DNA of 33,457 nucleotides, taken from contig CAILEM010000041.1 in assembly GCA_903833215.1 (NCBI GenBank), forward strand, positions 1 to 33,457, read 5' to 3'. Below the pieces are notes generated by a model. That model did no database searches and had not been told where the DNA came from. It worked only from the letters and a program-made list of their open reading frames with translations. Shown here piece by piece: positions 3,646 through 22,105 of the stretch. The translations under genes were made by a program, and so were the position numbers. Positions within the stretch are counted from its first letter, which is position 1. Each line of letters starts with the position of its first letter. Origin of the DNA: an uncultured Armatimonadota bacterium. GTDB lineage: Bacteria; Armatimonadota; Fimbriimonadia; Fimbriimonadales; Fimbriimonadaceae.

Positions 3646-3669
3646 TTTAACTTTTTTTAGTTTAGTGGC

Positions 3670-4809
3670 CTAAGGTGTCAAGGTCAGGGTTGCTTGCTTG
3701 CTTACTTGGCCAAACATCGCCCCAATCGTAAATGCCGTCTTGGTAGAGACTCCGCGGTGGGTTACCTTGAAGGTCGTTGTGAGCTTGCCGGCAGGAATGG
3801 TGACGGTCGAGGGCACGCCAACCAAGTCCGCATTGGAACTGGATAGGGAGATCACAAGTCCGCCGATGGGAGCAACTGAGCCAATGGTCACTGTGCCAGT
3901 TACTACCGTCGCAGCCGATCCCTTGACCGAGACCGGAGCCACTTTGACAGCCGTCAAGACTGGAGGCAGAAGCGAGAAGGTGCTTGCCGCCGACGAGTTA
4001 GCAAAAGCAGCGGAGATCTTTACCACTGACTCTGATACGACTGCCTTTGTGGTTACGGAGAACTTGCCAGTCAGTGCACCTCCAGCAATTTTTACTGTCG
4101 CAGGGATGGTTGCGATCGAAGAGCTGGAGTTTGTGAGAGTGATCGTTGCTCCTGTCGCGGATGCCGCTCCAGTAAGGGTGACGATACCGGAAACAGCGGT
4201 TTTGCCTCCAATGGCGCTCGCTGGAGTGAATGTCAACAACGCAATTGTAGGTGGATTAATAACCAGCGTGCTGTAAACGGTTGCGGTACCAATTTGGGCG
4301 GAAAGAGTCGCCGGCGTCTGGCTGGAAACCGCCTTTGTCGTAACCTTGAACGTCGTCGATGTCGAACCGGCCGGGATCGTTACCGTCGCGGGAACTGTCG
4401 CGCTGGTTGTACTGGATAGCAGTTTTGCAACGGCTCCACCCGCGGGGGCAGGGCCATTGAGTGCAACGGTAGCCGTTGAAGCAACGCCACCAGCCACCGT
4501 ACCCGGTTGCAGGGTGAAGCTTGATAACACCGATGGATTGATTGCCATCGTCGTCGTGACTGAAATCCCTTTCGCCGCGGCGGTGATCGTTGCAGAAACT
4601 TGGCTTGTCTGGGTTTTGGTTGTGACACTAAATGTCGTAGTGGCTTTGCCCGCATCAATGGTGACCGTGGCCGGAACCACGACGGCAGCGCTGTTGGACT
4701 TAAGGGTGACCGTAAAGCCACCGACAGGAGCTGACGAAGTTAGGTTGATAGTTCCGACTGCATTGGTTCCACCTACGAGAGACTGTGGTTGTACTGAAAT
4801 ATTTGACAG
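3670..4809 (-). repeat. Ig-like repeat tract, about 4 units of ~94 codons
   Basis: In-frame ~282-base units encode a pattern of P-x-S/T-V-x-G-G, then GTVTL, AP-x-GG, SS, PATVTI-x-AGK/S, and a closing xLTINP-like strand. Unit starts are VLSNISVQPQS, VLSSFTLQPGT, TIALLTFTPAS and VLTAVKVAPVS. The units are diverged at DNA level. The final unit carries an insertion (VKGSAATVVTGTVT) and a THRGV segment also found in the last unit of the neighbouring propeller protein. Confidence 0.85.
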
Positions 4810-6477
4810 CACGGCTGTGTCTAGAACTTTCGAGACCAGTCCCGAAAAGATCATTGGCCCCCATCCGGTAACTGTGTCCCAACCTGCCGTGGCCTTCGAA
4901 GACGCACCGCTAGGCAATGTGCCATTTGAGCCTGCGGTGATATCGAAGAAGACATTCGAATCGCCATTAAGGGAGTAGATGAGATCTTGGATTCGCCCAA
5001 ACCGTCTGTTGCCATTGGAGTCCTTGGGAAGTCCCCCGCTGGCAATAATCTGCTGCTCGGCATCGGCTAATGCGCCTGCCATCGCGGGGGCCGCACAACT
5101 CGTTCCGCCCCAACCCTGGAGTTGCCCCTGGACATAGATCGGGTATCCCGTCCCTGGATCAGCGTCAAGGCTCACGTCGGGAAACAGTCGGTAAGGGTTT
5201 CCAGTTGGAACTCCGGTTCCCTTTTGGTAGCTCGGGTGAATATTGAATGGATCTTGGCTTGGGAACCATCCTCCTCCGCTGCCGGTCCAACCCGTCTCGA
5301 GTGTTCTGTTCCCGAGATTATCAACCGAAACGGTGGTCCCCCCAACGATGCAGACTTCTGGATCGATATCAGAATAAGGCGCTTGCTTCTGTGAGTCCGT
5401 TCCGGTATCTCCAGATGCGGCGAGGTAGGTGATGCCCTGCGCATTCATCGCGAGGTGAAGATTGTGAGCCGCAAGATAGAATGAGGCTCCCCCCATCCAC
5501 CCATAGCTCTCCGAAACGATGTCAGCAAGGTTATCTTGTGATTCGTGGGTAAGTACCGAGATCAAATCTCCAGTGCCCGCATTGTCGTAGATAACGAGGT
5601 TACATAGAGGTGCGACTGCCAAAACGCACTGGATGTCGATATCCCCTTCGGGATCCTCGGTGGCAGTGTTGCCATTGGCTCCGCCAATCGACTTAACTGT
5701 GATGTTTGTACCCACTCCCCCTGCTGGCGTGGGCAGCCCGAAATGTGAATATTCCAGGGCAACATTCGAGAGGCGATAACCAACGAAATTGGATATCGCT
5801 ACGGTTCGCCCTTGGCCTCTGAAGTTGGCATTGTATCCCGCAGCGATGCTATACAACGTTCGAAGCTGAGAGGGCGTTAGTTGGTAGCGACTCTGTGGCT
5901 GTGTAAAGTCCTCAAGGCCGCCAATGTGAAATACGCATCCTCGCAAGGTCGACGGCAAATTAGGTGGCGCTGTGAATGAAAAGCGTCTGGGGCCAATCGA
6001 GAGCCCCCGATTGAGTGGCAAGTACTCTGTGATCGAAGTGTTGAATGCGGCCTGGGCTTGGGCGACAGTTGCATCGGCCAATACCGAGAGGTGATTGTCC
6101 CCAACCAGTCGAACGTTGATGCCGTGTGACTTCAGGTAGTTGGTGACTTGATTGATCGTGGCTTGGCTAGGGCCGTAGCGAGTACCAATCTCTTTCGGCG
6201 TGAGGAAGTGTCGATAGTTAGGGTTTTTTGGATCGGAGACCGAATTGACGAATGCTTGCATCCCTTCTGGATTTCGGTAGGGAAGGGATAGGGAAATGTG
6301 CAAAACGTCGGTAAGGGGTTTCGGGCCCATCGGCAATGCACTCATCGAACCCCGCGGCGGCTCCATAGGAACTTGAGCCCAGCTTGGGTGTTCCCCTTGC
6401 GCGAGCGTTAGCGCGGAAAGGCTAATCAGGGCGGTCACTGTGATCGCGCTTAGGAGCTTCAGTCTTGATTTGTTCAT
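3670..6477 (-). CDS. S53 sedolisin peptidase with four Ig-like repeats
   Basis: This is a secreted serine-carboxyl peptidase of 935 residues. Residues 1-27 form a signal peptide ending TLAQG. A pro-kumamolisin activation domain follows (about 40-190; NPNYRHFLTPKEIGTRYGPS). The S53 catalytic domain (about 200-555) has Glu277 and Asp281 in PEGDIDIQ, the oxyanion Asp357 in AASGDTG, the nucleophile Ser460 in GGTSCAAP, and the calcium-site region FFDIT (Asp512) and GWDTVTGWG. All catalytic residues are present, so the enzyme should be active, probably at acid pH. From about residue 557 four ~94-aa Ig-like repeats run to the last residue. The propeller gene lies 26 bases upstream on the same strand, so the two are likely cotranscribed; a terminator follows. 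ATG 6477 has no obvious Shine-Dalgarno site. Confidence 0.93.
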   Translation of the reverse strand: MNKSRLKLLSAITVTALISLSALTLAQGEHPSWAQVPMEPPRGSMSALPMGPKPLTDVLHISLSLPYRNPEGMQAFVNSVSDPKNPNYRHFLTPKEIGTRYGPSQATINQVTNYLKSHGINVRLVGDNHLSVLADATVAQAQAAFNTSITEYLPLNRGLSIGPRRFSFTAPPNLPSTLRGCVFHIGGLEDFTQPQSRYQLTPSQLRTLYSIAAGYNANFRGQGRTVAISNFVGYRLSNVALEYSHFGLPTPAGGVGTNITVKSIGGANGNTATEDPEGDIDIQCVLAVAPLCNLVIYDNAGTGDLISVLTHESQDNLADIVSESYGWMGGASFYLAAHNLHLAMNAQGITYLAASGDTGTDSQKQAPYSDIDPEVCIVGGTTVSVDNLGNRTLETGWTGSGGGWFPSQDPFNIHPSYQKGTGVPTGNPYRLFPDVSLDADPGTGYPIYVQGQLQGWGGTSCAAPAMAGALADAEQQIIASGGLPKDSNGNRRFGRIQDLIYSLNGDSNVFFDITAGSNGTLPSGASSKATAGWDTVTGWGPMIFSGLVSKVLDTAVLSNISVQPQSLVGGTNAVGTINLTSSAPVGGFTVTLKSNSAAVVVPATVTIDAGKATTTFSVTTKTQTSQVSATITAAAKGISVTTTMAINPSVLSSFTLQPGTVAGGVASTATVALNGPAPAGGAVAKLLSSTTSATVPATVTIPAGSTSTTFKVTTKAVSSQTPATLSAQIGTATVYSTLVINPPTIALLTFTPASAIGGKTAVSGIVTLTGAASATGATITLTNSSSSIATIPATVKIAGGALTGKFSVTTKAVVSESVVKISAAFANSSAASTFSLLPPVLTAVKVAPVSVKGSAATVVTGTVTIGSVAPIGGLVISLSSSNADLVGVPSTVTIPAGKLTTTFKVTHRGVSTKTAFTIGAMFGQVSKQATLTLTP

Positions 6478-6503
6478 AGGATTCTTGCCGAGGGATTCAG
6501 TCT

Positions 6504-9500
6504 TTAGGGAGTCACAGAGAGGTTTGCACTCTTTATGACTCCGGCGAGCGATGCCGTAATCGTCACAGACGTCTGTTGTGTGACGCCTTTGTGTGTGATC
6601 TTGAAGGTGGCGGTAGCCTTTCCAGCCGGGATTGTCACGGTTGCGGGCGTTGCCGCCGCATTCGCATTGGAACTGCTCAAGGCAATCACCAAGCCTCCGG
6701 TTGGAGCGACTCCTGAAAGTGTCACCGTGCCCGTTACAGCAGTAGTCGCACTTCCCTTAACGGATGCTGGAGCAATCGTAACCGATACGAGGGTTGGCGT
6801 TTGGATCGTGAGGCCCGCCTGCTTTGAACTGGTACCGAGTGTGGCAGTGATAGTGGCCGGTGTCGACGAGGTGACCGCGGTGGTTGTGATGTTAAAGATC
6901 CCAGTGGTCAGACCCACACCGACGGATGCTGTTGCGGGCACAACTGCGAACTTGGAGCTTGATGCTAGCTTGACCAAAACGGCTCCACTCTTTGAGCTTG
7001 GTGTCGCGTTCAAGGTGACGTTTCCGATCACTTTGTTCCCACCGATGACGTTCGTTGGGTTCAAGGTGAGGGCCGTGACCAAGAACGGATTGACGCTTAG
7101 AACAGCAGACCGCGAATTGCCGCCAGCTGTCACCGTGATCGTGACGTTCTGAGTCGTACTAACGATGAGGTGCGTCACTGCGAAGACTGCAGTGCTTTGT
7201 CCGCTCTGAACTTTAACGGATGCAATCACCGTTGCTGTTTTCGTATTGGAGCTCTTGAGCGAGACCGTGATACCAGCCGCTGGTGCAGGTCCACTAAACG
7301 TTACCGTTCCTGAGACATTGGTTGAAGACCCGCCAATGACACTTGTGGGACTCAAAGTTACGCCTATAAGTGTGGTTGGTTGAATGACGAGATTGGTCGA
7401 TTGAGTGCTTGATCCGAGCGTTGCCGTAATCGTTGCGGTAACACTTGCGGTAACAGACTTTGTCGATACTGTAAATGTCGCCGAAGTTGTGCCTGCGGCA
7501 ATCTGTACTGAGGCGGGAACGATGGCATTCGTATTGTTGGACTTCAGGGTTACTGTGAGTCCTCCAGTCGGTGCCGCTCCATTTAGGCTAACAGTTCCCG
7601 TCGCCGTGATGCCTCCTGTGACGGGGGATGGATCGATCGATACACTCACCAGCGATGCCGGATTGATTGTTAATGATGTAGTGACAGTTGTCGAATCGAG
7701 AACAGCCGTAATCGTGGAAGTGATCGTCGAGGCTTGACCGCTCGTGCCGACGGTGAACGTCGCTGAAGTTGTGCCAGAGGCTACCGACACAGAAGCGGGA
7801 ACGTTCGCTCCCGTCCCGGCGGACAAGTTAACCACCACTCCACCCACGGGAGCCGGGCGAGAAAGGCTAACCGTGCCTGTCGATGAGTTTCCTCCGACGA
7901 TGGAGTTGGGTGAGACCGACACGTTGGCAAGGAGCGGAGTTAAGACCGTCAACTGAGCGGTCGCGCTGCTGTTGTTCAGAGTCGCCGTGATCGTCGCGGT
8001 CACCGTATTTGTGACTGGCGAGGTTGCAATCGTAAAGGTTGCTGTGGTTGCCCCCGCTGGAACAACAACAGTGGCGGGTGTCACCGCATTTGAGCTGTTC
8101 GAGGATAGGGCAACCGTCGTTCCATTCGCTGGTGCCGCGCCGTTGAGCGTAACGGTCCCAGTGGCGGATATGCCACCGATCACTGTGTTTGGCGAAATGC
8201 TTACGGATGTGACTGTCGCCGGATTCACCGTCAGGGAAGCCGACTTCGCAACTCCACCTTGAGATCCGATGATTGTGGCGATTGTCGACACTGCCACTGA
8301 CTTCGTGGTGATGCTGAACGTTGTTGTCAGTGCACCGGCCGGAACTGTAACGGAAGCAGGCACGACCGCACTTGTTGAGTTCGAGGAAAGACTAACTGCG
8401 AGACCACCCGCCGGGGCTGGCCCAGTCATCGTGAGAGTTCCTGTCGAAGGCGCTCCCCCAATGACTGTGGCTGGTGCAATCGCGAGGCTCTGAAGTGTCG
8501 CCGGTGTGATGGTCAAAATCGCCGTTTTCGCGACGGAATTGAGATTCGCCGTGATTGTTGCAGAGGTCGTCGCTGCTACCGCTGAAGTCGAAATATTAAA
8601 TGTGCCAGACGTTGCGCCGGCCGCGACCGTCACGGTTGCTGGAACGGTTGCACTGGAGCTACTCGATGTCAGGCTAATTACCGACCCATTTGGCCCAGCG
8701 GCACCATTGAGTGTTACCGTTCCGACCGAAGCGTTACCGCCCGTTACAGACGTCGGAGTAAGGCTGATACTCGTCAAGGCAGCTGGGTTGATGGTAAGTG
8801 AGGCGGTCTTGGACGTTGCACCAAGAGTCGCCGTAATGGTTGCATTGGTGATCGTTGAGACGCCTGTTGTATTGATCGTGAATGTTGCCGATGTGGCACC
8901 TGCTGCGACTGTAACGGTCGCTGGCAAGGTTGCGCTGGTGGTGCTGGAAGATAAGCTGACGACACTTCCACCCGTTGGCGCTGCTCCGTTGAGAGTCAAC
9001 GTGCCAGTGGAGGTCAGACCTCCGATGAGGCTGGTTGGATTGACAGTAAGGTTGGACAGGACCGCTGGCGTAATCGCCAATGTGGTCGTTTGCGTTGAGG
9101 TCCCTTGCTTTGCCTGAAGCGTCGCCGTAGTGTTGGCGCCAACTGCGGTTGTGTTAACCGTAAACGATGCGGATGTTGCCCCGGCCGCGACAGTCACGGT
9201 TGCGGGAACGGTCGCGCTTGCCGTATCAGAGCTGAGGTTTATGACAAGACCTGCGCTGGGAGCTTGGCCATTGAGAGACACCGTGGCTGTCGCCGAGTTG
9301 CCGCCAAGCACCGAGTTCGGCGTAACACTGATTCCTGTGAGTGAGGCTGGGTTGATCGTAAGATTCGCCGTTTGCTGACTGCTTCCAAGCGAACCTGTTA
9401 TTGTGGCCGTGGTTGTGGTCGCCACAGCCGTCGTGGTTACTGTGAATGTCGCTGTTGAACTGCCAGCGGCAACCGTGACTGTTGCCGGGACGGTGGCGCT

Positions 9501-9917
9501 AGATGAATTCGATGCGAGTCCAACCTTGGTGCCGCCTGCCGGGGCGTTGCCACTGATGGTCACTGTACCAGTCGAAGAGTTTCCGCCGACAACCGTCGTT
9601 GGTGCAAGAGTAACCGACGAAAGCGTCAGAACGGTGACAGAGATCGTCTGGGTTAGAGTTGTGCCGTTATACGTCGCGCTTAATACAGAAGATCCGTTTG
9701 AAGCCAAAGCGGCATTGGTGTTGATGGTGAATGTTGCCGACGAAGATCCAGCGGGAACAGTCACAGATGTGGGTACGGTTGCGACAGAGGTTGTCGCCGA
9801 CGAAAGTGAAATGACAATGCCTCCGACAGGCGCCGCGGCGGATAACGTGACGGTTCCAGTCGATGTGTTGCCTGCCGAAACAGACGATGGCGAGATGGTG
9901 AAGGTGCTGAGGGTTGG
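6504..9917 (-). repeat. Ig-like repeat tract, about 12 units
   Basis: Twelve consecutive units of ~94-95 codons can be counted from their opening motifs (for example LTLSSVTLAPTTVVGGN, ASLTGISVTPNSVLGGN, PTLVSVTIAPASVKGSA). The tract ends exactly at the stop codon with NLSVTP. Unit 10 and the last unit contain a V-x-GTVT insertion and a VTH/ITH segment, unlike the regular units. Confidence 0.88.
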
Positions 9918-12602
9918 GTTATTCACCGAGGCAATCTGAAGTCGCCATAGACCACGACCATAGGTGCCTGCGTTCAGGTAGCCCGTACCTGGAACAGCAA
10001 CCAAGTCGTCAACAATCACGTTTGGCAGTCCGAGAGGTGACCCAGCGTTAGACCATGTTGCGCCCGAATCGGTGGTCTCGAAGACACCAACGTCGGTTCC
10101 GACAAACCACGTGGTCGATGGGTGGGTCAGGTCACGTGCAATCGCGTTGAGTGAGACATCGGGCAAAGAATTTGAGCCGCTGCCACTCAGTTTTGTAAAG
10201 ACGGCCGGATTCGCTGTTGTATCGCTGCATCGATAGAAGTGTCCGGTTCCTTTCCCAGCGCCGCCAAATCCGAGAACGATATCTTTCGGATTTGCTGGGT
10301 CGACGGAAATAGAAGTTAGGGACTGCTTGGGCAAGCTGCCATTCCCGTTCGCATTAAGGTGAACCCAAGACGAGCCCTGGTTTGCCGTCATCCAAATCGC
10401 ACCGTCACTGGAGCCCGTATAGATTCGATTGGAATCTGAAGGAGCAACCGTAACGCACTGAAGGATCGCACCGTTACCGCCATTGGTGATGTCTTGATTT
10501 CCAAGTGGCCCCGTCCATTGCTGGGTGGTTTCATTCCACTGATAAACGAAATTTGATCCGGTGTAAACGAGGTTGGACTTAAGGGGATCAATCCCCATCG
10601 CACATATGAACGGCGCGTTACCCGAGAACGGATTTCCCCAACTCCCTATTCGATTCTCAGTTTGCCAGCCATCAGTCGTGTTAATGATTGTCAGGTCGTA
10701 AATGGTTGCGTACTGGAACAGCGGGTTAAGCGGATTTACAGCAACACCACCACCATCACCGCCAGCCACGCTGATCCAGTTTTGGATATCTCCAGTGGAT
10801 GCAGGTGAAGCGTTATCTTGAGAGCCACCCAACGCGATATCTGGATTAGACGGGTGCATCGCGATGTGATAAAACATCGTGTTACCGAGGTTCTTGTTGA
10901 GGTCTGTAACGGTGGGGACGAAGTTCGGGTTGAAGGTAACGCCGTAGACGCCACCGTCATTGCTGAAAATCGCTGCATTGGGATTGCTGGGACTTACTGC
11001 CAGGCAGTGTTGGTCGTTATGGGCAATAGCTTTGCCGTTCTGGTTATACGTTGGTCCACCAATCGAAACCCACGAATTTCCGCCGTCGGTTGACAGCTGG
11101 ATGTCAATTTCGCCGAGGAAAAGGACGTCGGTAGTACCGCCCGCCTGAACCCGGCTACCGCACTCCAAGTGGTAGTCATACCAACTCTGGGAAAAGTTGT
11201 AGTTCGTTCCGACTTCATTTCCGGTGGGTAGATTTCCGCTCTTGTCGTTCCACGATCCACCTTGGTTTGAACTTGTGTAAAGTGCTTGGCGCTCCGAATC
11301 GAGGACGTAAACGTTGTTAGGGTCGGTCGGCGAAGTCGCGACTTCATAGGCAAATCGGTAGTTGCCGTCGGCGGGAACTGGACTGCTCAGCAATTGCCAT
11401 GTAGCACCATGGTCGTCCGACTTGTACAAGCGTTGGGTTTGGTTCCCGCCGGTCGCGTATCCTGCGGCGACGGCGTAGAAGCGAGTGTTTCCACTACTCG
11501 GTGCGCTCGCAGCCATGGTTGGCCAGATGTAGTATTGGCCGCCTAGCGCGACTTTTGTCCACGTAGCACCAGCATCAGTTGAACGGAACATCCAACCGCT
11601 AAAAGTATCGACATCTCCAGTACCGGCGATCAGCGTCTGGGAGTTGGTTGGGTCGATGAGGATGTGGTTGACCCCGACTTTGCCCATCGCTCCAATGGCT
11701 ATCTCAGTCCAAGTAGTGCCGCCGTCGGTGGACTTCATAATGCCGTAACTTCCAACAAGTTGGCCATGATAATCGCCGCGACCCACGTAGATCGTGTTGC
11801 CGTTTTTCGGGTCGATGGCGATGCAGTTGATGGCAAGCTGAGTCCACGTACTTGATAGCCATGTCCAAGTGGCACCACTATCCTTACTGCGCCACAAACC
11901 GCCCTGAGCGGCACCAGCATAGATGGTCTGAGAGTCCGCGGGATCGAAGGCAACCGCATTGACGCGACCGTTGATTGCGCCGACTCCATAGTAAGGATTG
12001 TAGGGAACCGACATATTGGTTGGACCAATGAATGTCCAGTTGATAGACGATCTTGGCTGAGACCCAAGCATCGAACTCCGAACAGAAGCTGGCTTCATTC
12101 GCGAGACATGCTCTCGAGCCTTGTCAAACGCGTTCCAATCAAAGGAGTCGTCAGATCCGGCACGCTGACTGATAAAGTATCGGTGGGCACGTAGGTAGTC
12201 CACCTTCTCGTTTTCTTCCTGCTCTTTCTTGCTCTTCGCCGCCTTCGGGTCGCGATGTTTGCGTTCTCTTTCTTCTTCGCGCGTGAACGCTTCGATCTTC
12301 CTGTCTATCGAACTGATGGAGTTCATGTTGACGGGTTGTTCATCGGCTTCGAGAGGTTGGACTCCCGTGATCTTCTCTAGGCGCTCTCGCGCCTTTTCCT
12401 CATCCACGGATGGGTTAAGTTGGATGAGATAAATGGAACTGCCGCGTTCTCGCGTCACGATCTTGCCGATTGGTTGGACGGCGGATGCCAGCCTTTCAAC
12501 GGATACGGTTGGTTTGATCTTAACGTAGAACTCAGCCCCCTTTTTGAGGTTCCCGGAAGACAGGCCTGAGAATAATGCGAGAGCCGATAGAAGAATTGTC
12601 AA
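6504..12602 (-). CDS. Giant secreted ASP-box (sortilin-like) propeller protein with Ig-like repeats
   Basis: This protein of 2032 residues begins with a short hydrophobic, signal-like N-terminus (1-17). Residues 22-92 resemble a fervidolysin/subtilisin-type propeptide fold (FYVKIKPTVSVERLASAV, then IYLIQLNPSVDEEKARERL), and a charged low-complexity stretch (98-135) follows. Residues ~188-890 hold a beta-propeller with ASP boxes (S-x-D-x-G-x-T-W) at about 239, 291, 341, 395, 444, 504, 739 and 843, as in BNR/sortilin-like proteins. About 12 Ig-like repeats fill 896-2032. Nothing identifies an enzyme active site; such propellers usually bind carbohydrate or protein. The start is a TTG at 12602 with CAGGG about 8 bases upstream; no in-frame ATG lies between it and the upstream stop. 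The downstream S53 gene follows after 26 bases. Confidence 0.88.
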   Translation of the reverse strand: MTILLSALALFSGLSSGNLKKGAEFYVKIKPTVSVERLASAVQPIGKIVTRERGSSIYLIQLNPSVDEEKARERLEKITGVQPLEADEQPVNMNSISSIDRKIEAFTREEERERKHRDPKAAKSKKEQEENEKVDYLRAHRYFISQRAGSDDSFDWNAFDKAREHVSRMKPASVRSSMLGSQPRSSINWTFIGPTNMSVPYNPYYGVGAINGRVNAVAFDPADSQTIYAGAAQGGLWRSKDSGATWTWLSSTWTQLAINCIAIDPKNGNTIYVGRGDYHGQLVGSYGIMKSTDGGTTWTEIAIGAMGKVGVNHILIDPTNSQTLIAGTGDVDTFSGWMFRSTDAGATWTKVALGGQYYIWPTMAASAPSSGNTRFYAVAAGYATGGNQTQRLYKSDDHGATWQLLSSPVPADGNYRFAYEVATSPTDPNNVYVLDSERQALYTSSNQGGSWNDKSGNLPTGNEVGTNYNFSQSWYDYHLECGSRVQAGGTTDVLFLGEIDIQLSTDGGNSWVSIGGPTYNQNGKAIAHNDQHCLAVSPSNPNAAIFSNDGGVYGVTFNPNFVPTVTDLNKNLGNTMFYHIAMHPSNPDIALGGSQDNASPASTGDIQNWISVAGGDGGGVAVNPLNPLFQYATIYDLTIINTTDGWQTENRIGSWGNPFSGNAPFICAMGIDPLKSNLVYTGSNFVYQWNETTQQWTGPLGNQDITNGGNGAILQCVTVAPSDSNRIYTGSSDGAIWMTANQGSSWVHLNANGNGSLPKQSLTSISVDPANPKDIVLGFGGAGKGTGHFYRCSDTTANPAVFTKLSGSGSNSLPDVSLNAIARDLTHPSTTWFVGTDVGVFETTDSGATWSNAGSPLGLPNVIVDDLVAVPGTGYLNAGTYGRGLWRLQIASVNNPTLSTFTISPSSVSAGNTSTGTVTLSAAAPVGGIVISLSSATTSVATVPTSVTVPAGSSSATFTINTNAALASNGSSVLSATYNGTTLTQTISVTVLTLSSVTLAPTTVVGGNSSTGTVTISGNAPAGGTKVGLASNSSSATVPATVTVAAGSSTATFTVTTTAVATTTTATITGSLGSSQQTANLTINPASLTGISVTPNSVLGGNSATATVSLNGQAPSAGLVINLSSDTASATVPATVTVAAGATSASFTVNTTAVGANTTATLQAKQGTSTQTTTLAITPAVLSNLTVNPTSLIGGLTSTGTLTLNGAAPTGGSVVSLSSSTTSATLPATVTVAAGATSATFTINTTGVSTITNATITATLGATSKTASLTINPAALTSISLTPTSVTGGNASVGTVTLNGAAGPNGSVISLTSSSSSATVPATVTVAAGATSGTFNISTSAVAATTSATITANLNSVAKTAILTITPATLQSLAIAPATVIGGAPSTGTLTMTGPAPAGGLAVSLSSNSTSAVVPASVTVPAGALTTTFSITTKSVAVSTIATIIGSQGGVAKSASLTVNPATVTSVSISPNTVIGGISATGTVTLNGAAPANGTTVALSSNSSNAVTPATVVVPAGATTATFTIATSPVTNTVTATITATLNNSSATAQLTVLTPLLANVSVSPNSIVGGNSSTGTVSLSRPAPVGGVVVNLSAGTGANVPASVSVASGTTSATFTVGTSGQASTITSTITAVLDSTTVTTSLTINPASLVSVSIDPSPVTGGITATGTVSLNGAAPTGGLTVTLKSNNTNAIVPASVQIAAGTTSATFTVSTKSVTASVTATITATLGSSTQSTNLVIQPTTLIGVTLSPTSVIGGSSTNVSGTVTFSGPAPAAGITVSLKSSNTKTATVIASVKVQSGQSTAVFAVTHLIVSTTQNVTITVTAGGNSRSAVLSVNPFLVTALTLNPTNVIGGNKVIGNVTLNATPSSKSGAVLVKLASSSKFAVVPATASVGVGLTTGIFNITTTAVTSSTPATITATLGTSSKQAGLTIQTPTLVSVTIAPASVKGSATTAVTGTVTLSGVAPTGGLVIALSSSNANAAATPATVTIPAGKATATFKITHKGVTQQTSVTITASLAGVIKSANLSVTP

Positions 12603-12719
12603 ATGATTACCCTGGAAAAATGAACGAGTCGCTTAAGTTTACGACACCGCGTGTAGAAGTGGAATCAGCCTGAGGCTTAAGCAACGTTTCGAACCCAACT
12701 TCTTAACTTGAATACAGAA

Positions 12720-12755
12720 AGAGGGGGCGAACCTCACGAAAGATTCGCCCCCTCT
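12720..12755 (-). terminator. Terminator hairpin after the 3105-aa gene
   Basis: A 12-base inverted repeat (12720-12731 with 12744-12755, GAGGGGGCGAA core) lies 33 bases beyond the stop on the minus strand and is followed there by TTTCTGT, a weak U-tract. Position and stem strength support termination of the giant sedolisin transcript. The propeller gene would therefore have its own promoter in 12603-12719, where I see no convincing -10/-35 pair. Confidence 0.65.
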
Positions 12756-12763
12756 ATGATGCA

Positions 12764-12782
12764 CTCTCCGGTACCCGGAGAG
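12764..12782 (-). other. Second hairpin directly after the 3105-aa gene stop
   Basis: CTCTCCGG (12764-12771) and CCGGAGAG (12775-12782) form an 8-base stem around a three-base loop, 6 bases past the stop codon. No U-tract adjoins it. It may protect the mRNA 3' end or work with the terminator next to it. Confidence 0.45.
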
Positions 12783-12787
12783 GTGAT

Positions 12788-15700
12788 TTACGGTGTGATC
12801 GTCAGCGCAGCGGACTGAGTCAGTCCAGCCAGCGTTGCCGAGATGTTGGCGGTGGTGTTTGAAGTCACCGTAACTGTGTTCACCGTGAAGGTCACGGATG
12901 TGGCTCCTGCCGGAATCGTTACCGTCGCCGGAAGAGTTGCACTTGTAGAGTCCGATGCCAATGTGATGGTGAGTCCACCTGTTGGTGCCGGTCCCGTAAG
13001 AGTTACCGTGCCGGTGGATGAAGTCCCACCGGTAACGGATGTTGGGTTGAGTGTCACCGAAAGCAGCGTTGGCGCTTTGATGATGATCGTGGCTTGAACC
13101 GTGGCGTTGTACTTAGTGGAGACAACGACGGTGGTATCGGCAGCAAACACGCTAGCAGTGAGTGTGAATGTCGCCGAGGTTGATCCAGCCGGAATCACGA
13201 TAGTTCCCGGGATGGTGATCGCATGGGAGACGCTTGTGCCCCATGACACGGTTGCGCCGCCTGCTGGTGCAGGACCGTTGAGGGTCAAGGTTCCAGTTGC
13301 CGTCGCTCCACCGTTTATTGTCGACGGTGAGATCGCGAGCGAAATCAGCGAGACAGGTGTAACGGTGAGATTCGCAGACTTCGTCACTCCACCAAAGGTG
13401 GCGGAGATCGTAACCGTGAGGTTTGCTGCCTGGTTCGTTGTTGCGATGCTGAATGTTGCCGTCGTAGCTCCGGCAGGGACCGTCACCGTAGCTGGAACTG
13501 TCGCCCCAGCCGTCGATGCGAGCGTGACGACGACTCCACCAGTTGGTGCAACTCTTGCGAGTGTTACCGTTCCCGTTACTGTGTTTCCGCCCGCGATTGT
13601 CGTCGGCTTGACCGAAACTGCGGAGAGAAGAGGAGTTTGAATGGTAAGCGTAGCGCTTGCTGTAACACCACTCAACGCGCCTGAGATCGTCGAGGTTGTT
13701 GCTGCCGCAACGATTGTTGTCGAGATTGGGAAAGTGGCCGATGTGGCTCCCGCTGCTACCGTCACCGAAGCTGGGACGATTGCGCTTGTGCTTGTTGAGG
13801 CCAGTTGCACCACGGTACCGCTCGCAGGAGCAGGACCGCTAAGAATGACTGTTCCTACCGAAGGATCTCCACCGGCAAGTGTCGACGGGTTTAGGGTCAA
13901 GCTTGTCAGAGAAGGAGGGTTAATCGTTAGGACAGCGGTCGTCACCAAACCGCCTTGGATGGCGGTGATGGTTGCTGGCGTCGGCCCAGCAACCGGTGTT
14001 GTGGTGATGGTGAAGGTTGTGGTCGTTGCTCCTGCCGGAATTGTTACGGTGCTTGGAACCGTAGCGCTCGACGACTTGGAACTAACCGATACAACCACCC
14101 CACCCGTTGGCGCGGGGCCGTCAAGTGTAAGGGTGCCTATGGAAGAGTTACCGCCGGTCACCGTTGTCGGCGAGAGTGTTAGGCTCGTCAAAACCGGAGG
14201 ATCGATCGTGAGTGTTGCGGTTGAAGAAACTCCACCTTGGGTTGCCGTGATGGTCACCGGAGTGGATGTCACTACAGGAGTTGTGCTTACCGTAAAGGTT
14301 CCCGTGGTTGCTCCCGCAGCCACCGTCACAGATACCGGAACAGTTGCGCTTGTTGAGCTTGAGCCCAGCGTAACGACGAGCCCACCGGTTGGAGCTGCGC
14401 CGGTCAATGTAACCGTTCCGGTGGAAGGCTTACCACCCTTTAGCTGAACTGGGTTCAACGTCAAGGACTGCAGCTTTGCCGCCTGGACCGTCACCGTCGT
14501 GGCAACGGTTGTCGTCCCAGATTTTGAGTAGAGCGTTACAGTAGCGTCTGCTGCAACTGGCAGAGTTGCCACTGTGAACGTAACAGAAGTTGCTCCAGCT
14601 GGGATCGTCAAGCTTGCCGGATTTGGCAGAGCATTCTTGTTTGATGTGGAGAACACAACGGCCATTCCACCTGTCGGAGCAGGGCCGTTTGTGGTCAGTG
14701 TTGCGGTAGCAGAGTTCCCACCGATTAGTGTCGATGGAACGACAGTTAGGCTTGACAGAACCACCGGAGTGAGATTCAGAGTCGCCGTTCGAGTAACTGT
14801 GAACAACGATGCAGTGATCGTTACACTCAGGTTTGCCGACTGGTTGAGAGTGGTAATGGAGAAGGTCGCGGAGGACGATCCCGCCGGAACGTTGACCGTT
14901 GCAGGCACCGATGCACCTGCGGTTGCCGAAAGGCTCACGTTCACGCCACTGGCTGGTGCTGCCTGTGTGAGGGTTACCGTGCCCGTAACTGTATTTCCAC
15001 CCGCCGTTGTTGATGGCTTGATCGCCAACGTGTAGAGTGCCACGGAGTTGATCGTCAAGACGGCTGTCTTGGTCGTCCCACTTAGAGACGCCGAAATCGT
15101 TGCCGAAGTCGTCGTCGTAACCGATGTCGTGGTTACCGTGAACGTTGCTGTCGTCGCACCCGCAGCCACTGTTACCGTTGCTGGTACAGACGCGCTGGTT
15201 GAGTTAGACGAGAGAGACACGACTGTTCCGCTCGGTCCCGCTGGACCTGTGAGGGTTATCGTTCCCGTCGATGTTGCTCCGCCAGTAACGGTGCTTGGCG
15301 CCAATGTGACGCTCGTCAGGGTCGCTGCCGTGATCGTCAGGTTGGCCGATTTGGTCGTGCCATTGAACACTCCAGATATCGACGCCGTCGCCGAAGCAGA
15401 GACTGCCGAAGTGCTAACGGTGAAGGTCACACTCGTTGCGCCACTCGGAACCGTGACTGTCGCTGGGACAGTGGCATTTGAGTTGTTCGACGAGAGCGTA
15501 ACGACAATGCCGTCTGGCCCTGCTGCTCCCGTGAGGGTCACAGTGCCAGTCGATGAGTTGCCGCCGATCACCGAGGTCGGTGAAACTGCGAGGCTGCTGA
15601 TTGACGCTGGGTTAATCGTGAGCGTTGCAGTTTGAGTCGAGGCTCCTGCCGTTCCAGTGATGGTTGCCGTTGCTGCAGCCGATACCGCAGTGGTGGTTAC

Positions 15701-18700
15701 CGTGAATGTCGCTGAGGTCGCGCCAGCAGCAACTGTTACCGAAGCCGGAACCGTTGCATTAGCGTTATTCGAAGTCAGGCTCACGAGGAACCCGCCCGCA
15801 GGTGCCACCGCGTTTAGGGTGACAGTACCGGTGGACGATGCTCCACCTTGAAGCGAAGTCGGCGACAACGTCACTCCAGTAAGGATAGGAGCGTTGATGG
15901 TCAGCGCTGCCGACTGGGTGCCGCCGTTGAGCGAGCCTGAGATATTCGCCGTGGTCGTTGTGGACACGGCCGATGTGCTGACCGTAAAGGTTGCGCTGGT
16001 TGCGCCAGCGGCGACGGTTACGGATGCAGGCAAGGTTGCGCTTGCCGAATCGGACGCAAGCGTCACGACGGAACCGCCAGGGCCTGCAGGGCCGTTGAGC
16101 GTTACAGTACCCGTTGACGAAGAACCGCCAGTCAGGCTTGCGGGGGAAAGGGTCAGGCTCGTAAGTGTCGCTGGCGAGATGGTGAGGGTTGCCGTTTGAG
16201 TCGAAGACCCCGCGGTTCCTGTAATCGTTGCCGTCGTTGAACTTGAGACTGCCGAGGTCGAGATGGTGAACGTTGCTGACGTCGCTCCTGCCGCAACAGT
16301 GACAGTTGCTGGAACGGTCGCACTTGCTGAACTGGAGCTGATGCTTACAACCAGGCCACCTGTCGGTGCTGGTCCGTTCAAGCTTAGTGTGCCGGTGGAG
16401 GATGTTCCGCCAGTAACGGTTGCTGGATTCACTGTCACGCTTGTCAGCGTTGGCGAGTTAATCGTGAGCGTGGCCGTCTTGCTCGTGGCACCGGTGCTAC
16501 CGGTGATGGTGGCGTTGTCTGTCGCTGCGACAGCGACTGTCGTAATCGTGAACGTCGCAGAGGTTGCACCTGCGGCGACGGTTACGGTTGCGGGCAGCGA
16601 GGCGTTCGCAGAACTCGAAGTGAGCGAAACGACAGTTCCACCTGAGGACGCAGGGCCGTTCAGTGTGATCGTGCCTGTCGAAGATGTTCCACCTGTTACA
16701 GAACTTGGTGAAACGGCGAGGCTGCTGATGGTCGGAGCATCGATCGTCAGGGTGGCCGTCTTGGTGACACTACCGCCCGTACTGGTGATGGTTGCTGTCG
16801 TCGTCGTGGCAACCGCGGTCGTGCTAACCGTGAAGGTAGCCGAGGTTGCACCCGCCGGAACCGTAACGCTTGCAGGAAGGGTGGCGTTCGTCGAACTCGA
16901 TGACAACGTAATGACAATGCCGCCAGTTGGGGCCGTACCGGTGAGGGTTACGGTTCCAGTGGAGGTGTTTCCTCCCACTACCTCAGTTGGGCTGAGACTT
17001 ACCGACTGAAGAGTCGGTGCCTGGACCGTTACGGTTGTAGCAACCGTTGTTGTTCCAGATTTTGAGTAGAGGGTTACGACGGTGTCGGTGGCAACCGGCA
17101 GGGTTGTGACCGGGAACGTTACCGAAGTTGCTCCGGCTGGGATCGTGATGCTTGCCGGATTTGGCAGAGCATTCTTGTTCGAAGTAGAGAACACGACGGA
17201 CATTCCGCCAGCGGGCGCCGGTCCGTTTGTGCCCAGAGTTCCAGTTGCAGATGTTCCACCTACGAGCGGATTTGGCGATACCGTCAGTGTCGATATGACG
17301 ACCGGGTTGATCGTCAGCGTCGCGGACTGTGTCGATGTTCCGTACGTTGCAGTGATGCTCGCCGTCGACGTCGCGGAAACCGAAATCGTCGTGATGGTGA
17401 ACGTTGCCGAGGTTGATCCGGCTGGCACGGTTACGGATGCAGGGAGCGTCGCATTCGTGCTGCTGGAGGTGAGGTTAACGGTAATGCCACCGGACGGAGC
17501 AACTCCGTTCAAAGTGACGGTTCCCGTCGACGTGAGCCCTCCGACAACGGTGCTCGGCTTCAATGACACGCTTGTTACGGCGGGAGGATTGATCGTGAGC
17601 GTCGTCGTCTTGGTGGTGCTTCCGGTGACGCCGGAAATGGTCGCAGCAACCGAGCTTGATACCGCGGTTGTCGAGATGGTGAACGTCGCAGAGGTTGCAC
17701 CTGCTGCTACTGATACCGTCGCAGGCACCGTTGCACTCGTCGAGCTAGACGAAAGCGAAACAACGATTCCGCCAGAACCCGCCGGACCGGTCAAGGTGAC
17801 GGTTCCGGTTGAAGACACGCCACCGATGACAGTGCTCGGTGCTACCGAGATGCTGGCAATCGTTGGAGGGTTAATGGTGAGTGTCGCCGTCTTGGTGACA
17901 CCACCGGCGGTTGCCGTGATGGTGGCCGTGGTGACGACGGAGACGGTGGTTGTGCTGATCGTGAAGGTCGCTGAGGTTGCACCGGCAGCGATTGTAACAG
18001 TCGCCGGCAGCGTCGCACTTGTCGAGCTCGATGAGAGCGATACAGATAGTCCGCCTGGTCCAGCTGGGCCGGTCAAGGTGAGCGTTCCGGTTGAGGAGGT
18101 TCCACCCGCTAACGAACTTGGAGCAAGTGTGAGCGTCGAGAGTGTAGCCGGATTGATCGTCAACGTCGCCGTTTGACTGATTCCAGCGAGTGTTCCAGTA
18201 ATCGTTGAAGTAGTGACTGCAGAAACAGCGGTTGTAGAGATTGTAAAGGTGGCTGACGTGGCCCCTGCAGCAACCGTTACGCTTGCTGGCAGAGTTGCGC
18301 TGGCTGAGCTTGACGTCAGTGTCACCACCGAACCACCAGGTCCCGCTGCACCCGATAGGGTTACAGTGCCGGTGGAGGAAGTTCCACCCGTTAGAGTAGA
18401 TGGCGACAAGGTGACGCTTGAAAGCGTCGCCGGTGTGATCGTGAGAGTCGCGGTCTTCGTGACTCCATTTGAACTCGCCGTGATCGTCGAGGTATCCGTG
18501 CTGGATACAGCGACGGTTGTGATTGTAAATGTTCCAGTCGTTGCACCGGCAGCGACGGTGACCGTAGCGGGCACTGTCGAATTCGCACTGCTAGCAGTGA
18601 GGTTCACCAGGTAACCACCGGCTGGAGCGGCACCGTTGAGCGTCACGGTTCCGGTTGAGGTGTTACCACCCTGAACCGAAGTCGGTGCAACTGACACACT

Positions 18701-20404
18701 GACCAGTGATGGAGGAATGATCGAGAGGGTAGCCGTCTTGGACGTGCTACCAAGGGTTCCGGTAATGATCTCACTTACGGCGCCTGCGACAGGCGTCGTA
18801 TTGATCGTGAATGTTGCGGTCGTTGCGCCAGCGGCGACGACGACATTCGCAGGAACGGTTGCATTGGTGTCGCTTGCAGACAGCGTCACTGTGGTTCCAC
18901 CAGTCGGGGCGGCTCCATCGAGAGTCACGGTGCCAGTTGAAGTGTTGCCGCCTACGACTGATGTCGGTGAAACGGACACGCTTACCAGCGCGGGTGGGTT
19001 GATCGTAAGCGTTCCCGTTTTGGTCGTTGAGCCCTGCGTTCCAGTGATGGTTGCAGTGGTGATCGTCGCGACGGGAGTCGTGCTTACCGTGAATGTTGCT
19101 GAAGTTGCGCCAGCGGCAATGGTTACCGTCGCTGGAAGGGTCGCACTTGGAGTGTTTGAGGAGAGGCTGACAACGGTTCCGCCAGGGCCAGCCGGTCCAT
19201 TTAGAGTCGCGGTTCCCGTCGAAGGATTTCCGCCTGTGACTGCGGTCGGTGCCAGAGTGATGCTGGTCAGGCTGGCTGGATTAATCGTCAGCGTCGCCGT
19301 CTTCGTGGTGCTCGCGAGCGTGCCAGAAATCGTCGCCGTGGCTGTACTGGAGACTGCCAAGGTGTTGATTGTGAACGTTGCGCTGGTCGCACCTGCCGCA
19401 ACTGTGACCGTTGCTGGGACCGTTGCGTTGAGGCTATCCGACGAGAGGGTTATGACCGCCCCTGAAGGGCCAGCTGCACCGGTGAGGGTGGCCGTTCCTG
19501 TCGAAGTGTTGGTTCCCACAACTGCCGTCGGGGATACCGAAATGCTCTGCAGGGTCGCAGGCAAGATCGTTAAGGTCGCGGTTTTATTGACGCTGCCCAG
19601 GTTGCCAGTGATCGTTACCGATGTCGAACTTGATACCGGCGTTGTAGTGATTGTGAAGGTCGCTGATGTTGCTCCTGCCGGAATCGTCACAGACGCCGGT
19701 GCCGATGCATTCGGAACACTCGAAGATAGTATGACGCTCACTCCACCGGTAGGTGCAGCGCCGTCAAGAGTAGCGGTTCCAGTAGAACTGGTTCCTCCCT
19801 GAACCGATGTTGGATTCAGGCTGATCGAACTAAGGGAGGGTGGGTTAACGGTTAGGGTCGTTGTAACCGAAGTGCCGCCAATCGATGCCGTAATCGTAGC
19901 CGTCGCTGCCGCAGAAACTGGCGTCGTACTGACAGTAAAGGTCGCTGAGGTTGCTCCAGCAGCCACTGTTACCGAAGCCGGTAGTGTGGCACTGCCTGAG
20001 TTCGAGGCTAGGTTGACGATCACACCACCCGTCGGAGCTGCTCCGTTGAGTGATACCGAGCCTGAGGAGGTATTGCCGCCCACCACTGTTGATGGGGACA
20101 CAGCCACCGAGGAGACGGTTGGCGGATTGATCGTGAGGGACGAGGTTATTGATGCTCGCGAGATCGTCGCTGTAATGGCCGCCGTTGTAACGGCTGCCAC
20201 AGGACTCGTTGTCACCGTAAATGTCGTGGATGTGGATCCAGCCGGAATGGTTACCGATGTTGGCACGACTGCACTTGCACTGTTGGAAGCGAGTGTGACG
20301 ACAGTGCCGCCGGTTGGGGCAGTGAGGCTGACGGTGATCGTGGCGGTCGATGAAGTCCCGCCGGTAACGCTACCAGGGGAGAACGTGAGGGCAGTTGGGA
20401 CGGT
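12788..20404 (-). repeat. Ig-like repeat tract, about 27 units of ~94 codons
   Basis: Counting the opening motifs (PTVSSVAVSPSTVVGGN, PSLSSISLNPTSVQGGT and so on) gives 27 units in 2538 residues. Individual units vary from 93 to 95 residues. The consensus is rich in Thr, Ser, Ala, Val and Gly and almost free of Cys and charged residues, with VPATVTVAAGATSATFTI as its most constant segment. Units 12 and 21 are much closer to each other than to the rest, and units 20/21 resemble 25/26, showing block duplication. The DNA period is about 282 bases. Confidence 0.92.
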
Positions 20405-22105
20405 GGTGTTGAGCACCTTCGACACAAAACCCGAGAAGATCATGGGGCCCCAGCCGGTGGCGGTGTCCCATCCAACGGTCGCTACGGACGTATTTCCGTT
20501 GGGTAGCGTCCCGTTGTTTCCAGTCGTGATGTCGTAGAAGATGTTCGCGTCGCCGTTGTACGAGTAAAGCAGGTCGTTGATTCGTCCGAATCGTTGGTGC
20601 CCGGATGGGTCAGACGGAAGGCCACCGCCAGCGATGATCGCCTGAGCGCTGTCTGCGAGGCTGCCTGCAAATGTAGGCGAGGCGCCGCTGGTTCCACCAA
20701 TTTGGTAGAAGCCGTTGTTTACGTAGATGATGTATCCGGTCTGATCGTCTGCGTCTAGAGATACATCAGGTGTAAGGCGATAAGGAATGCCGGTCGGAAC
20801 ACCGGTTCCATGTTGGTAGGAAGGCAAGATGTTGAATGCATCCGTGGATGGAACCCAACCTCCACCGCCACTCCAGAAATCACCGTTGCTGGGGTCTGTC
20901 CAGTTCCACGGAACCTCGCTGGTGCGGTTACCCTGGGCGTCGGTAAGTGCACTTGTTCCGCCGACGATCAAAACCTCGGGGTCGATGTCTGGATAGGGGA
21001 ACGTCTTAATGTCTTGTGCGCCATGGTCGCCAGAGGCGGCTAGATAAGTAATACCGGTCGCGCTCATTGAGACGTGAATGCTATGGCATGCAGAATAGAA
21101 TGCAACATTACCGCGCCAGCCCCAGCTTTCGGTGATGAAATCAGCTAGGTTGTCGTTGGCTTCCTTTGTAAGGAGCGTAATGGGATCGAAAGTGTTGTCA
21201 GTTGGAGCGTCGCAAGCACAGTCGTAAATAATGAGGTTGCAGAGAGGAGCCATGGCAAGCACAGCCTGAATATCGAGATCTGCTTCACCTGCCTGATAGC
21301 TGTATGTGTTGCCGTTTTTGCCGTTGATCGAGACGACAGAGATGTTTGAACCGACTCCGCCTGCAGGGACAGGCAGACTGAACTGACTGTACTCATGGCT
21401 AACATTGGAAAGTCGGTATCCGTCGTAGTTGGAGATAGCAACGGTTCGTCCCTTACCCGTGTTACCGTTTTTGTAAACAGGGGCGAGGCTGTAAAGCTGT
21501 CTTAGTTGACTTGGAGTCAGCGGACCACCTCGGCGCTTGGGTTGAGTGAAGTTCTCAATACCACCGATATAAGAAACCAGCGAACCAATAGATGCCGGGA
21601 CGGTTGGGACAGAGGTGAAGGAAAACAGCGTGTTGCTGCTAGCCACGCCATTGACTACCGGATTGAACTGATCAATCGTTGTGTTGAACGCGGCTTCCAC
21701 TTGGGCGACAGTGGCGTCCGCCAAAATGGTTATCCGGTTCTTCGCAACCAGGGTGACCTTCATGCCTGAGGCCGTCAAAAAGTCAGATACCTTTTGGAGG
21801 TTCTTCGCTGACACGCCATAGCGAGACCCAACCTGTTCAGGACTAATAAAGTGTCGGTAATTCGGACTATTGGGGTCCGAAACGGAGTCGACAAACTGCT
21901 GGATTCCCTCCGGATCGCCATAAGGCAAAACGATAGAAATGTGGAGCAGGTCTGTAGGAGGTTTATGGCCCGCAGGAGACGCAGACTCTACGCCCGATGG
22001 AATTTCCATCGGCACATTAGCCAGCGTGACCTGTTTCGATTGGGCAAACGCGGAAATAGCCAGCAATAGGAAGGCTGGCAATATCAGTAATTTGCGAAGA
22101 TTCAT
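12788..22105 (-). CDS. Giant S53 sedolisin peptidase with about 27 Ig-like repeats
   Basis: This 3105-residue secreted protein has a signal peptide at 1-21 (cleavage likely after AFA), a pro-kumamolisin activation domain (about 35-185; NYRHFISPEQVGSRYGVS) and an S53 catalytic domain (about 195-565). The catalytic set is Glu274/Asp278 (GEADLDIQ), Asp360 (AASGDHG) and Ser473 (GGTSGASP), with calcium-site Asp525 (FYDIT) and GWDTATGWG. The remaining 2538 residues are 27 Ig-like units averaging exactly 94 residues. Ordinary sedolisins are 400-700 residues, so this tail is extreme. The head is clearly paralogous to the 935-aa neighbour (shared LTPSQLRxLYS, GRTVAISN, AGGVGxNI). No sorting signal, anchor or C-terminal domain follows the last repeat. 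ATG 22105 has no good Shine-Dalgarno site. An imperfect inverted repeat lies at 22143-22163 in the leader. Confidence 0.94.
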   Translation of the reverse strand: MNLRKLLILPAFLLLAISAFAQSKQVTLANVPMEIPSGVESASPAGHKPPTDLLHISIVLPYGDPEGIQQFVDSVSDPNSPNYRHFISPEQVGSRYGVSAKNLQKVSDFLTASGMKVTLVAKNRITILADATVAQVEAAFNTTIDQFNPVVNGVASSNTLFSFTSVPTVPASIGSLVSYIGGIENFTQPKRRGGPLTPSQLRQLYSLAPVYKNGNTGKGRTVAISNYDGYRLSNVSHEYSQFSLPVPAGGVGSNISVVSINGKNGNTYSYQAGEADLDIQAVLAMAPLCNLIIYDCACDAPTDNTFDPITLLTKEANDNLADFITESWGWRGNVAFYSACHSIHVSMSATGITYLAASGDHGAQDIKTFPYPDIDPEVLIVGGTSALTDAQGNRTSEVPWNWTDPSNGDFWSGGGGWVPSTDAFNILPSYQHGTGVPTGIPYRLTPDVSLDADDQTGYIIYVNNGFYQIGGTSGASPTFAGSLADSAQAIIAGGGLPSDPSGHQRFGRINDLLYSYNGDANIFYDITTGNNGTLPNGNTSVATVGWDTATGWGPMIFSGFVSKVLNTTVPTALTFSPGSVTGGTSSTATITVSLTAPTGGTVVTLASNSASAVVPTSVTIPAGSTSTTFTVTTSPVAAVTTAAITATISRASITSSLTINPPTVSSVAVSPSTVVGGNTSSGSVSLNGAAPTGGVIVNLASNSGSATLPASVTVAAGATSATFTVSTTPVSAAATATITASIGGTSVTTTLTVNPPSLSSISLNPTSVQGGTSSTGTATLDGAAPTGGVSVILSSSVPNASAPASVTIPAGATSATFTITTTPVSSSTSVTITGNLGSVNKTATLTILPATLQSISVSPTAVVGTNTSTGTATLTGAAGPSGAVITLSSDSLNATVPATVTVAAGATSATFTINTLAVSSTATATISGTLASTTKTATLTINPASLTSITLAPTAVTGGNPSTGTATLNGPAGPGGTVVSLSSNTPSATLPATVTIAAGATSATFTVSTTPVATITTATITGTQGSTTKTGTLTINPPALVSVSVSPTSVVGGNTSTGTVTLDGAAPTGGTTVTLSASDTNATVPANVVVAAGATTATFTINTTPVAGAVSEIITGTLGSTSKTATLSIIPPSLVSVSVAPTSVQGGNTSTGTVTLNGAAPAGGYLVNLTASSANSTVPATVTVAAGATTGTFTITTVAVSSTDTSTITASSNGVTKTATLTITPATLSSVTLSPSTLTGGTSSTGTVTLSGAAGPGGSVVTLTSSSASATLPASVTVAAGATSATFTISTTAVSAVTTSTITGTLAGISQTATLTINPATLSTLTLAPSSLAGGTSSTGTLTLTGPAGPGGLSVSLSSSSTSATLPATVTIAAGATSATFTISTTTVSVVTTATITATAGGVTKTATLTINPPTIASISVAPSTVIGGVSSTGTVTLTGPAGSGGIVVSLSSSSTSATVPATVSVAAGATSATFTISTTAVSSSVAATISGVTGSTTKTTTLTINPPAVTSVSLKPSTVVGGLTSTGTVTLNGVAPSGGITVNLTSSSTNATLPASVTVPAGSTSATFTITTISVSATSTASITATYGTSTQSATLTINPVVISTLTVSPNPLVGGTSATGTLGTNGPAPAGGMSVVFSTSNKNALPNPASITIPAGATSVTFPVTTLPVATDTVVTLYSKSGTTTVATTVTVQAPTLQSVSLSPTEVVGGNTSTGTVTLTGTAPTGGIVITLSSSSTNATLPASVTVPAGATSATFTVSTTAVATTTTATITSTGGSVTKTATLTIDAPTISSLAVSPSSVTGGTSSTGTITLNGPASSGGTVVSLTSSSANASLPATVTVAAGATSATFTITTVAVAATDNATITGSTGATSKTATLTINSPTLTSVTVNPATVTGGTSSTGTLSLNGPAPTGGLVVSISSSSASATVPATVTVAAGATSATFTISTSAVSSSTTATITGTAGSSTQTATLTISPATLTSLTLSPASLTGGSSSTGTVTLNGPAGPGGSVVTLASDSASATLPASVTVAAGATSATFTVSTSAVSTTTTANISGSLNGGTQSAALTINAPILTGVTLSPTSLQGGASSTGTVTLNAVAPAGGFLVSLTSNNANATVPASVTVAAGATSATFTVTTTAVSAAATATITGTAGASTQTATLTINPASISSLAVSPTSVIGGNSSTGTVTLTGAAGPDGIVVTLSSNNSNATVPATVTVPSGATSVTFTVSTSAVSASATASISGVFNGTTKSANLTITAATLTSVTLAPSTVTGGATSTGTITLTGPAGPSGTVVSLSSNSTSASVPATVTVAAGATTATFTVTTTSVTTTTSATISASLSGTTKTAVLTINSVALYTLAIKPSTTAGGNTVTGTVTLTQAAPASGVNVSLSATAGASVPATVNVPAGSSSATFSITTLNQSANLSVTITASLFTVTRTATLNLTPVVLSSLTVVPSTLIGGNSATATLTTNGPAPTGGMAVVFSTSNKNALPNPASLTIPAGATSVTFTVATLPVAADATVTLYSKSGTTTVATTVTVQAAKLQSLTLNPVQLKGGKPSTGTVTLTGAAPTGGLVVTLGSSSTSATVPVSVTVAAGATTGTFTVSTTPVVTSTPVTITATQGGVSSTATLTIDPPVLTSLTLSPTTVTGGNSSIGTLTLDGPAPTGGVVVSVSSKSSSATVPSTVTIPAGATTTTFTITTTPVAGPTPATITAIQGGLVTTAVLTINPPSLTSLTLNPSTLAGGDPSVGTVILSGPAPASGTVVQLASTSTSAIVPASVTVAAGATSATFPISTTIVAAATTSTISGALSGVTASATLTIQTPLLSAVSVKPTTIAGGNTVTGTVTLARVAPTGGVVVTLASTAGATVPATVTVPAGATTATFSIATTNQAANLTVTISATFGGVTKSANLTVTPVSLISLAISPSTINGGATATGTLTLNGPAPAGGATVSWGTSVSHAITIPGTIVIPAGSTSATFTLTASVFAADTTVVVSTKYNATVQATIIIKAPTLLSVTLNPTSVTGGTSSTGTVTLTGPAPTGGLTITLASDSTSATLPATVTIPAGATSVTFTVNTVTVTSNTTANISATLAGLTQSAALTITP

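Follow-up and report, generated by a model that had tools for sequence, protein, structure and literature searches.

How a bacterium might hold large exported enzymes and binding proteins at its surface is the question raised by three adjacent genes on the minus strand of a 33,457-nucleotide stretch of DNA (hereafter the window) from an uncultured Armatimonadota bacterium of the family Fimbriimonadaceae (contig CAILEM010000041.1 of assembly GCA_903833215.1). An earlier note on this DNA had described three genes that share one stalk repeat in 4, 12 and 27 copies beneath unlike heads and that end on a unit boundary; it had interpreted them as one modular surface or matrix system, in which no sorting motif follows the repeats and attachment would have to be mediated by the repeats themselves. 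Here we report what profile searches, comparison with related genomes and structure prediction make of the three proteins, and in particular of the units with which their stalks end.

The heads that the note had named, two S53 peptidases on either side of an ASP-box propeller, are borne out by Pfam matches and by the S53 motifs (Table 1). The pro-kumamolisin activation domain PF09286 scores 93 bits on protein 1 and 91 bits on protein 3 (Pfam cut-off 23.5), and the motifs for the Glu/Asp pair, the oxyanion Asp and the Ser are intact in both, namely EGDIDIQ, SGDTG and GGTSCAAP in protein 1 and EADLDIQ, SGDHG and GGTSGASP in protein 3. By family tests proteins 1 and 3 are S53 sedolisins, with a predicted activity as acid serine-carboxyl peptidases, and their heads belong to different S53 subclades (support 0.93). 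Protein 2 matches PF15902 (Sortilin-Vps10) at 74.9 bits against a curated cut-off of 33 and carries a YCF48-type ASP-box propeller. The S53 and VPS10-like/ASP-box heads are ordinary members of their families, and their sole difference is the fusion to a stalk. Signal peptides were assigned by eye; that of protein 2, read from the TTG at 12602, looks weak, and paralogues in L047, L057 and L097 have similar short N-termini. On visual comparison, the N-terminal stretch of protein 2 encoded at 12330-12540 (GAEFYVKIKP...VERLASAVQPIGKI...GSSIYLIQL) is similar to the prodomain that precedes subtilases, here placed before a propeller. The genes of proteins 2 and 1 lie 26 bp apart and probably form one operon, and a strong terminator stands between the protein 3 gene and that pair. 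Elsewhere in the window, at 28613-30487, a protein with an OmpA domain and an N-terminal hydrophobic segment is encoded beside ABC-transporter genes, which fits a diderm envelope.

Table 1. Genes, heads, stalks, terminal units and terminator-like hairpins of the three-gene stretch (window coordinates)
Feature	Position	Strand	Details
Protein 1 ORF	3670-6477	minus	935 aa
Protein 2 ORF	6504-12602	minus	2032 aa; TTG start only
Protein 3 ORF	12788-22105	minus	3105 aa
Protein 1 head: signal peptide, pro-kumamolisin activation domain, S53 sedolisin catalytic domain	4810..6477	-	PF09286 2e-26
Protein 2 head: short export signal, N-terminal domain, ASP-box/VPS10-like propeller	9912..12602	-	PF15902 7e-21; PF14870 5e-8
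Protein 3 head: signal peptide, pro-kumamolisin domain, S53 catalytic domain	20399..22105	-	PF09286 1e-25
Protein 1 stalk, 4 Ig-like units (predicted fold)	3673..4809	-	profile search
Protein 2 stalk, 12 Ig-like units (predicted fold)	6507..9911	-	profile search
Protein 3 stalk, 27 Ig-like units (predicted fold), all ordinary class	12791..20398	-	profile search, class assignment
Protein 1 last unit, terminal class c0 (SVKGS...TGTV...FKVTH...LTLTP)	3673..3957	-	123 bits, A2 model; jackknife class '0'
Protein 2 cassette unit c2 (FAVTH)	7086..7370	-	jackknife class assignment
Protein 2 cassette unit c1 (GNVTLNATPSSKSGAVLVKL)	6798..7079	-	jackknife class assignment
Protein 2 last unit, class c0 (FKITH)	6507..6791	-	133 bits
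Terminator-like hairpin directly 3' of protein 3, 16 bp stem	12720..12755	-	sequence
Terminator-like hairpin 3' of protein 1	3611..3648		both strands scored

A profile built from seven units recovers the same three adjacent minus-strand genes and the same unit counts as the note, with units of 91-95 residues, domain E-values of about 1e-15 to 1e-38 and arrays that each stop no more than one residue from the stop codon. The units share 20-82% protein identity, with within-protein means of 39-54%; in proteins 2 and 3 the internal units are 47-54% identical within the protein, against about 44% between units of different proteins. Tandem Repeats Finder detected no DNA-level tandem array in the window, which together with the divergence of the units speaks for old, divergent repetition and rules out recent tandem slippage. 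All three stalks are free of cysteine, rich in serine and threonine (32-40%) and very poor in acidic residues. The structure prediction that the note had proposed was carried out on the last two and the last three units of protein 2, and AlphaFold2 returned an Ig-like sandwich with a mean pLDDT of 97 and a pTM of 0.85; the stalk unit is thus predicted with high confidence to be a two-sheet Ig-like sandwich. Structurally, the two-unit model comes closest to the Ig-like domains of invasin and intimin (Z about 11). No solved structure related to the unit by sequence was found, and no unit in the three stalks or the two-unit sample passed a curated Pfam or NCBIfam cut-off, the Big_* families included; the terminal units likewise stay below cut-off (best E 0.0056 against Pfam, 0.0005 against NCBIfam).

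The repeat reaches far beyond the window. A first-look profile search of the 6.2 Mb host genome yielded about 400-440 candidate units, and a first set of genome stretches contributed 43 repeat proteins comprising 296 units, a list that later stretches raised to at least 46 proteins with many unlike heads; these counts are lower bounds, the proteins having been sampled via their high-scoring units. Grouped by BLAST and scanned with Pfam for a subset, the heads form clusters of 17 PQQ-type propellers, 7 S53 peptidases and 4 VPS10-like propellers, beside single kelch, WD40, GH25, DUF4434 and other heads. The unit is present in 83 of 101 genomes and attains very large numbers only in a few species of the genus (the host, G004, G012 and G019); those relatives of the propeller head that bear names are uncultured Armatimonadetes and one Fimbriimonas MAG. 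The three window proteins belong to a large family of modular proteins exported by Sec in this Armatimonadota genus. The note had held that a widespread promiscuous domain without a tendency to occur in adjacent genes would make the three-gene cluster a coincidence, and a promiscuous domain is largely what the searches uncovered, but repeat genes do cluster, with 9 neighbouring pairs observed against 0.75 expected among 46 genes. A co-operating surface protease and propeller system could point to this clustering, to the adjacency, common strand and shared stalk of the three genes and to the close spacing of two of them. It is nonetheless very improbable: no S53 gene lies within the neighbouring stretches examined around the propeller orthologues of three other species (L095, L096 and L097), the terminator splits the protein 3 gene from the other two, and the S53 heads come from different subclades. 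On synteny and the terminator we reject the three genes as one system, and what survives of the original proposal is a modular stalk carrying unlike heads on proteins that are probably located at the surface or in a matrix.

The note's view of attachment needs a similar division: the repeats probably do attach the proteins, but specifically by way of a specialised set of C-terminal units that had been overlooked. The statement that the repeats are followed by no sorting motif is in substance mistaken, since the last units are specialised. This set comprises the last unit of protein 1 and the last three units of protein 2, whose final unit is the best-scoring terminal unit of the host genome; it is absent from protein 3, the last unit of which contains neither lysine nor arginine. 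The terminal signature reads SVKG-S-TT-VTGTV ... AGK ... F-x-V-x-H ... LTVTP. By a jackknifed position-specific score the true last unit ranks first in 26 of 34 host-genome proteins (5.4 expected, AUC 0.90), a result that 200 relabelled control sets did not approach (at most 13/34); first units, too, can be told from internal ones, though less well (AUC 0.77, first rank in 13/34). Across four species the motif F-x-[VI]-x-H occurs in 23/70 last, 2/70 second-last and 13/65 third-last units and in 0/387 units further in, the 38 occurrences in the last three units against none elsewhere giving a Fisher value of 3e-19 by a test that ignores relatedness. Within proteins of at least five units, all 32 units with the motif fall among the last three, against 12.7 in within-protein shuffles (maximum 23). 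Basic residues follow the same gradient: the last unit has 5.6 lysines and arginines in the host genome, and three sister species reach 6.5, 4.9 and 6.2, compared with about 1-1.6 internally. The climb spans the last three to four units, and in 53 of 58 proteins the last unit contains more of these residues than the average internal unit (p about 1e-10), with separate replication of the rise in G012, G004 and G019.

When all proteins are jackknifed, 56 of 70 last units are assigned to two terminal classes, c0 (22) and the lysine-rich class k (34), to which only 8 of 265 units at least five positions from the end belong. The remaining 14, protein 3 among them, end in ordinary units, and the terminal module is hence not required for membership of the family. 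Class c0 terminates headless stalks as well as stalks that bear S53, VPS10-like, PQQ or kelch heads; since the species are close relatives and the stalk proteins were sampled through their best-scoring units, these counts do not represent independent events. Often c0 is preceded by c2 and c1, which gives a fixed C-terminal order 2-1-0 on unlike heads, or a shorter form of it in some S53 proteins, behind a stalk that ranges from a single unit to roughly twelve. In a further set of proteins, for which the c0 model selected c0 itself and left position and neighbours unselected, the 16 last units classed as c0 all lie at the stop codon and mostly show the order 2-1-0.

The terminal c0 units of the four genomes form one pure clade (21/23, support 0.92). 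Over the same 231 protein pairs the mean identity is 53.8% for the last unit and 43.1, 44.5 and 42.6% for the three units preceding it, and the last unit is the more conserved in 212-218 of these pairs. Identity among c0 units is equal within and between genomes (53.7 versus 54.1), such that recent copying inside a genome fails to explain the conservation, and recent gene conversion of stalk ends is rejected on the same grounds. These comparisons suggest that c0 is an ancient class maintained by selection. Across 85 genomes of the family it reaches full strength (at least 100 bits) in no species other than the four stalk-rich ones; a dedicated machine would consequently be equally restricted or pre-existing. 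The tagged S53 proteins all lie outside the subclade of protein 3, whose members in the host genome, G004 and G012 have stalks that finish with ordinary units; a pair within that subclade from G007, a genome of the same genus, may be an exception.

We read the last units as a C-terminal surface-sorting or retention cassette on the stalk proteins and would give this reading an even chance of being correct, because earlier sorting systems were recognised from just such a pattern, a conserved folded module at the exact C-terminus of exported proteins that are otherwise unlike. Tags of the PEP-CTERM, GlyGly-CTERM and MYXO-CTERM kinds are short and consist of a hydrophobic helix and a basic tail, unlike the stalk cassette, which would be a folded domain and has no membrane segment. 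What these systems, with exosortase in the case of PEP-CTERM, have in common with the cassette is a region of homology at the C-terminus of dissimilar exported proteins from a single genome, and it was through such a region that PEP-CTERM came to light (PMC1569441); here the same kind of region appears in a little-studied diderm phylum. Neither a PEP-CTERM or LPXTG motif nor a C-terminal transmembrane helix was found in the three proteins, which end with the last strand of a unit and have no Pfam or NCBIfam match there. The type IX sorting signal, a conserved Ig-like C-terminal domain (PMC4804311), offers the nearest working analogy: as in the CTD of the gingipain RgpB, an Ig-like last domain would follow another Ig-like domain at the exact C-terminus of proteins with unlike heads. 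The cassette differs in its phylum and in being a variant of the stalk unit itself. Type IX secretion proper is rejected, with SprA detected in 0/4 genomes and in a control genome at 1e-141, and with no match to TIGR04183 among 17 terminal units. Periscope proteins and Gram-positive fibrillar adhesins likewise carry a head on folded domains that are strung in tandem into a rod and attached at the C-terminal end (PMC9704523), but the stalk repeats described here are divergent rather than near-identical and LPXTG is absent. The structural matches of the unit pair recall the inverse autotransporters intimin and invasin, along with LigA and BAP, from which the stalk proteins depart in that no beta-barrel was found and the orientation is reversed, with the head N-terminal.

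Some of the same observations could be accounted for by other means. Were the terminal module an outer-membrane-crossing secretion signal, perhaps cleaved and providing no permanent anchor, the proteins would end up in the medium or the matrix; the last unit is indeed the most conserved and exactly C-terminal, and secretins are present in 4/4 genomes tested. We consider this unlikely, since the known signal families do not match the terminal units, substrates of type II secretion have, to our knowledge, no common C-terminal domain, and SprA is missing from the four genomes despite a detectable positive control; the existence of Ig-like C-terminal export signals in type IX systems nevertheless counts in its favour (PMC4804311). 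An evolutionary end effect, in which stalks grow and homogenise internally while three functionless end units are inherited from an ancestral stalk onto which heads were spliced, agrees with the greater likeness of internal units within proteins 2 and 3 and with the single c0 clade. A neutral block, however, should not leave c0 about 10 points above c1 and c2 over the same pairs, and the rise in lysine and arginine also marks the second class k; such an origin is rather unlikely as well. Charge binding by the basic last units without any sorting machine would also fit, with LPS or an anionic matrix as conceivable targets.

In this family a variable N-terminal head, peptidase or propeller, is carried by a rod made of neutral Ig-like units in differing numbers, which in most members ends with the basic, highly conserved c0, often after c2 and c1, or with the lysine-rich k. 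Under the preferred reading of a sorting or retention cassette, this terminal module would most likely serve as an address or anchor, recognised by an export or retention apparatus or binding an anionic polymer of envelope or matrix, and the head would be held away from the cell at a distance set by the number of neutral units. What the analysis shows is the architecture, the predicted fold and, for the terminal units, their specialisation, position, conservation and recurrence on unlike heads in four species; we infer a surface location, a sorting or retention role and a partner for the module, and the searches found no partner protein. Proteins 1 and 2 both carry the module, and protein 3, which like its nearest S53 relatives in the host genome and two sister species lacks it, would be released or held otherwise. 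If the module is a tag, the two S53 enzymes, one tagged and one untagged, constitute a natural internal control within the window. More tentatively, an unrecognised Armatimonadota sorting pathway might use the specialised last Ig-like repeat (c0 or k) as the tag that brings dozens of peptidases and propellers to the surface, a proposal that we regard as possible if doubtful. If it were true, much of the surface proteome would be predictable from sequence and there would be a partner machine to seek. Our literature search found no described tag of this kind, and the passages searched in the Fimbriimonas ginsengisoli genome paper report type II secretion genes and contain nothing on the stalk repeat (PMC4072686).

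Several further arrangements of the unit were encountered among the relatives. Headless stalk proteins of 19-22 units, found in at least three species (L049:4570-10098, L088:6382-12735 and L092:6387-12428), share MPHTE near the N-terminus and have similar last units. An inverted layout, with the units directly after the signal and a PQQ-type or other domain at the C-terminus, is seen at L038:10909-14691, L058:5372-7846, L041:11867-13888, L053:4716-6755 and L064:4485-7115, and in another genome of the phylum (G100, L093) a giant open frame has ten internal units and a YD/Rhs-like C-terminal region. In family f2 of the order (L031-L037), proteases of about 620 residues that are subtilisin-like S8 enzymes by their motifs carry exactly two units and end in LT[VI]WF or LTVWF in the copies inspected, perhaps another specialisation of the terminal unit.
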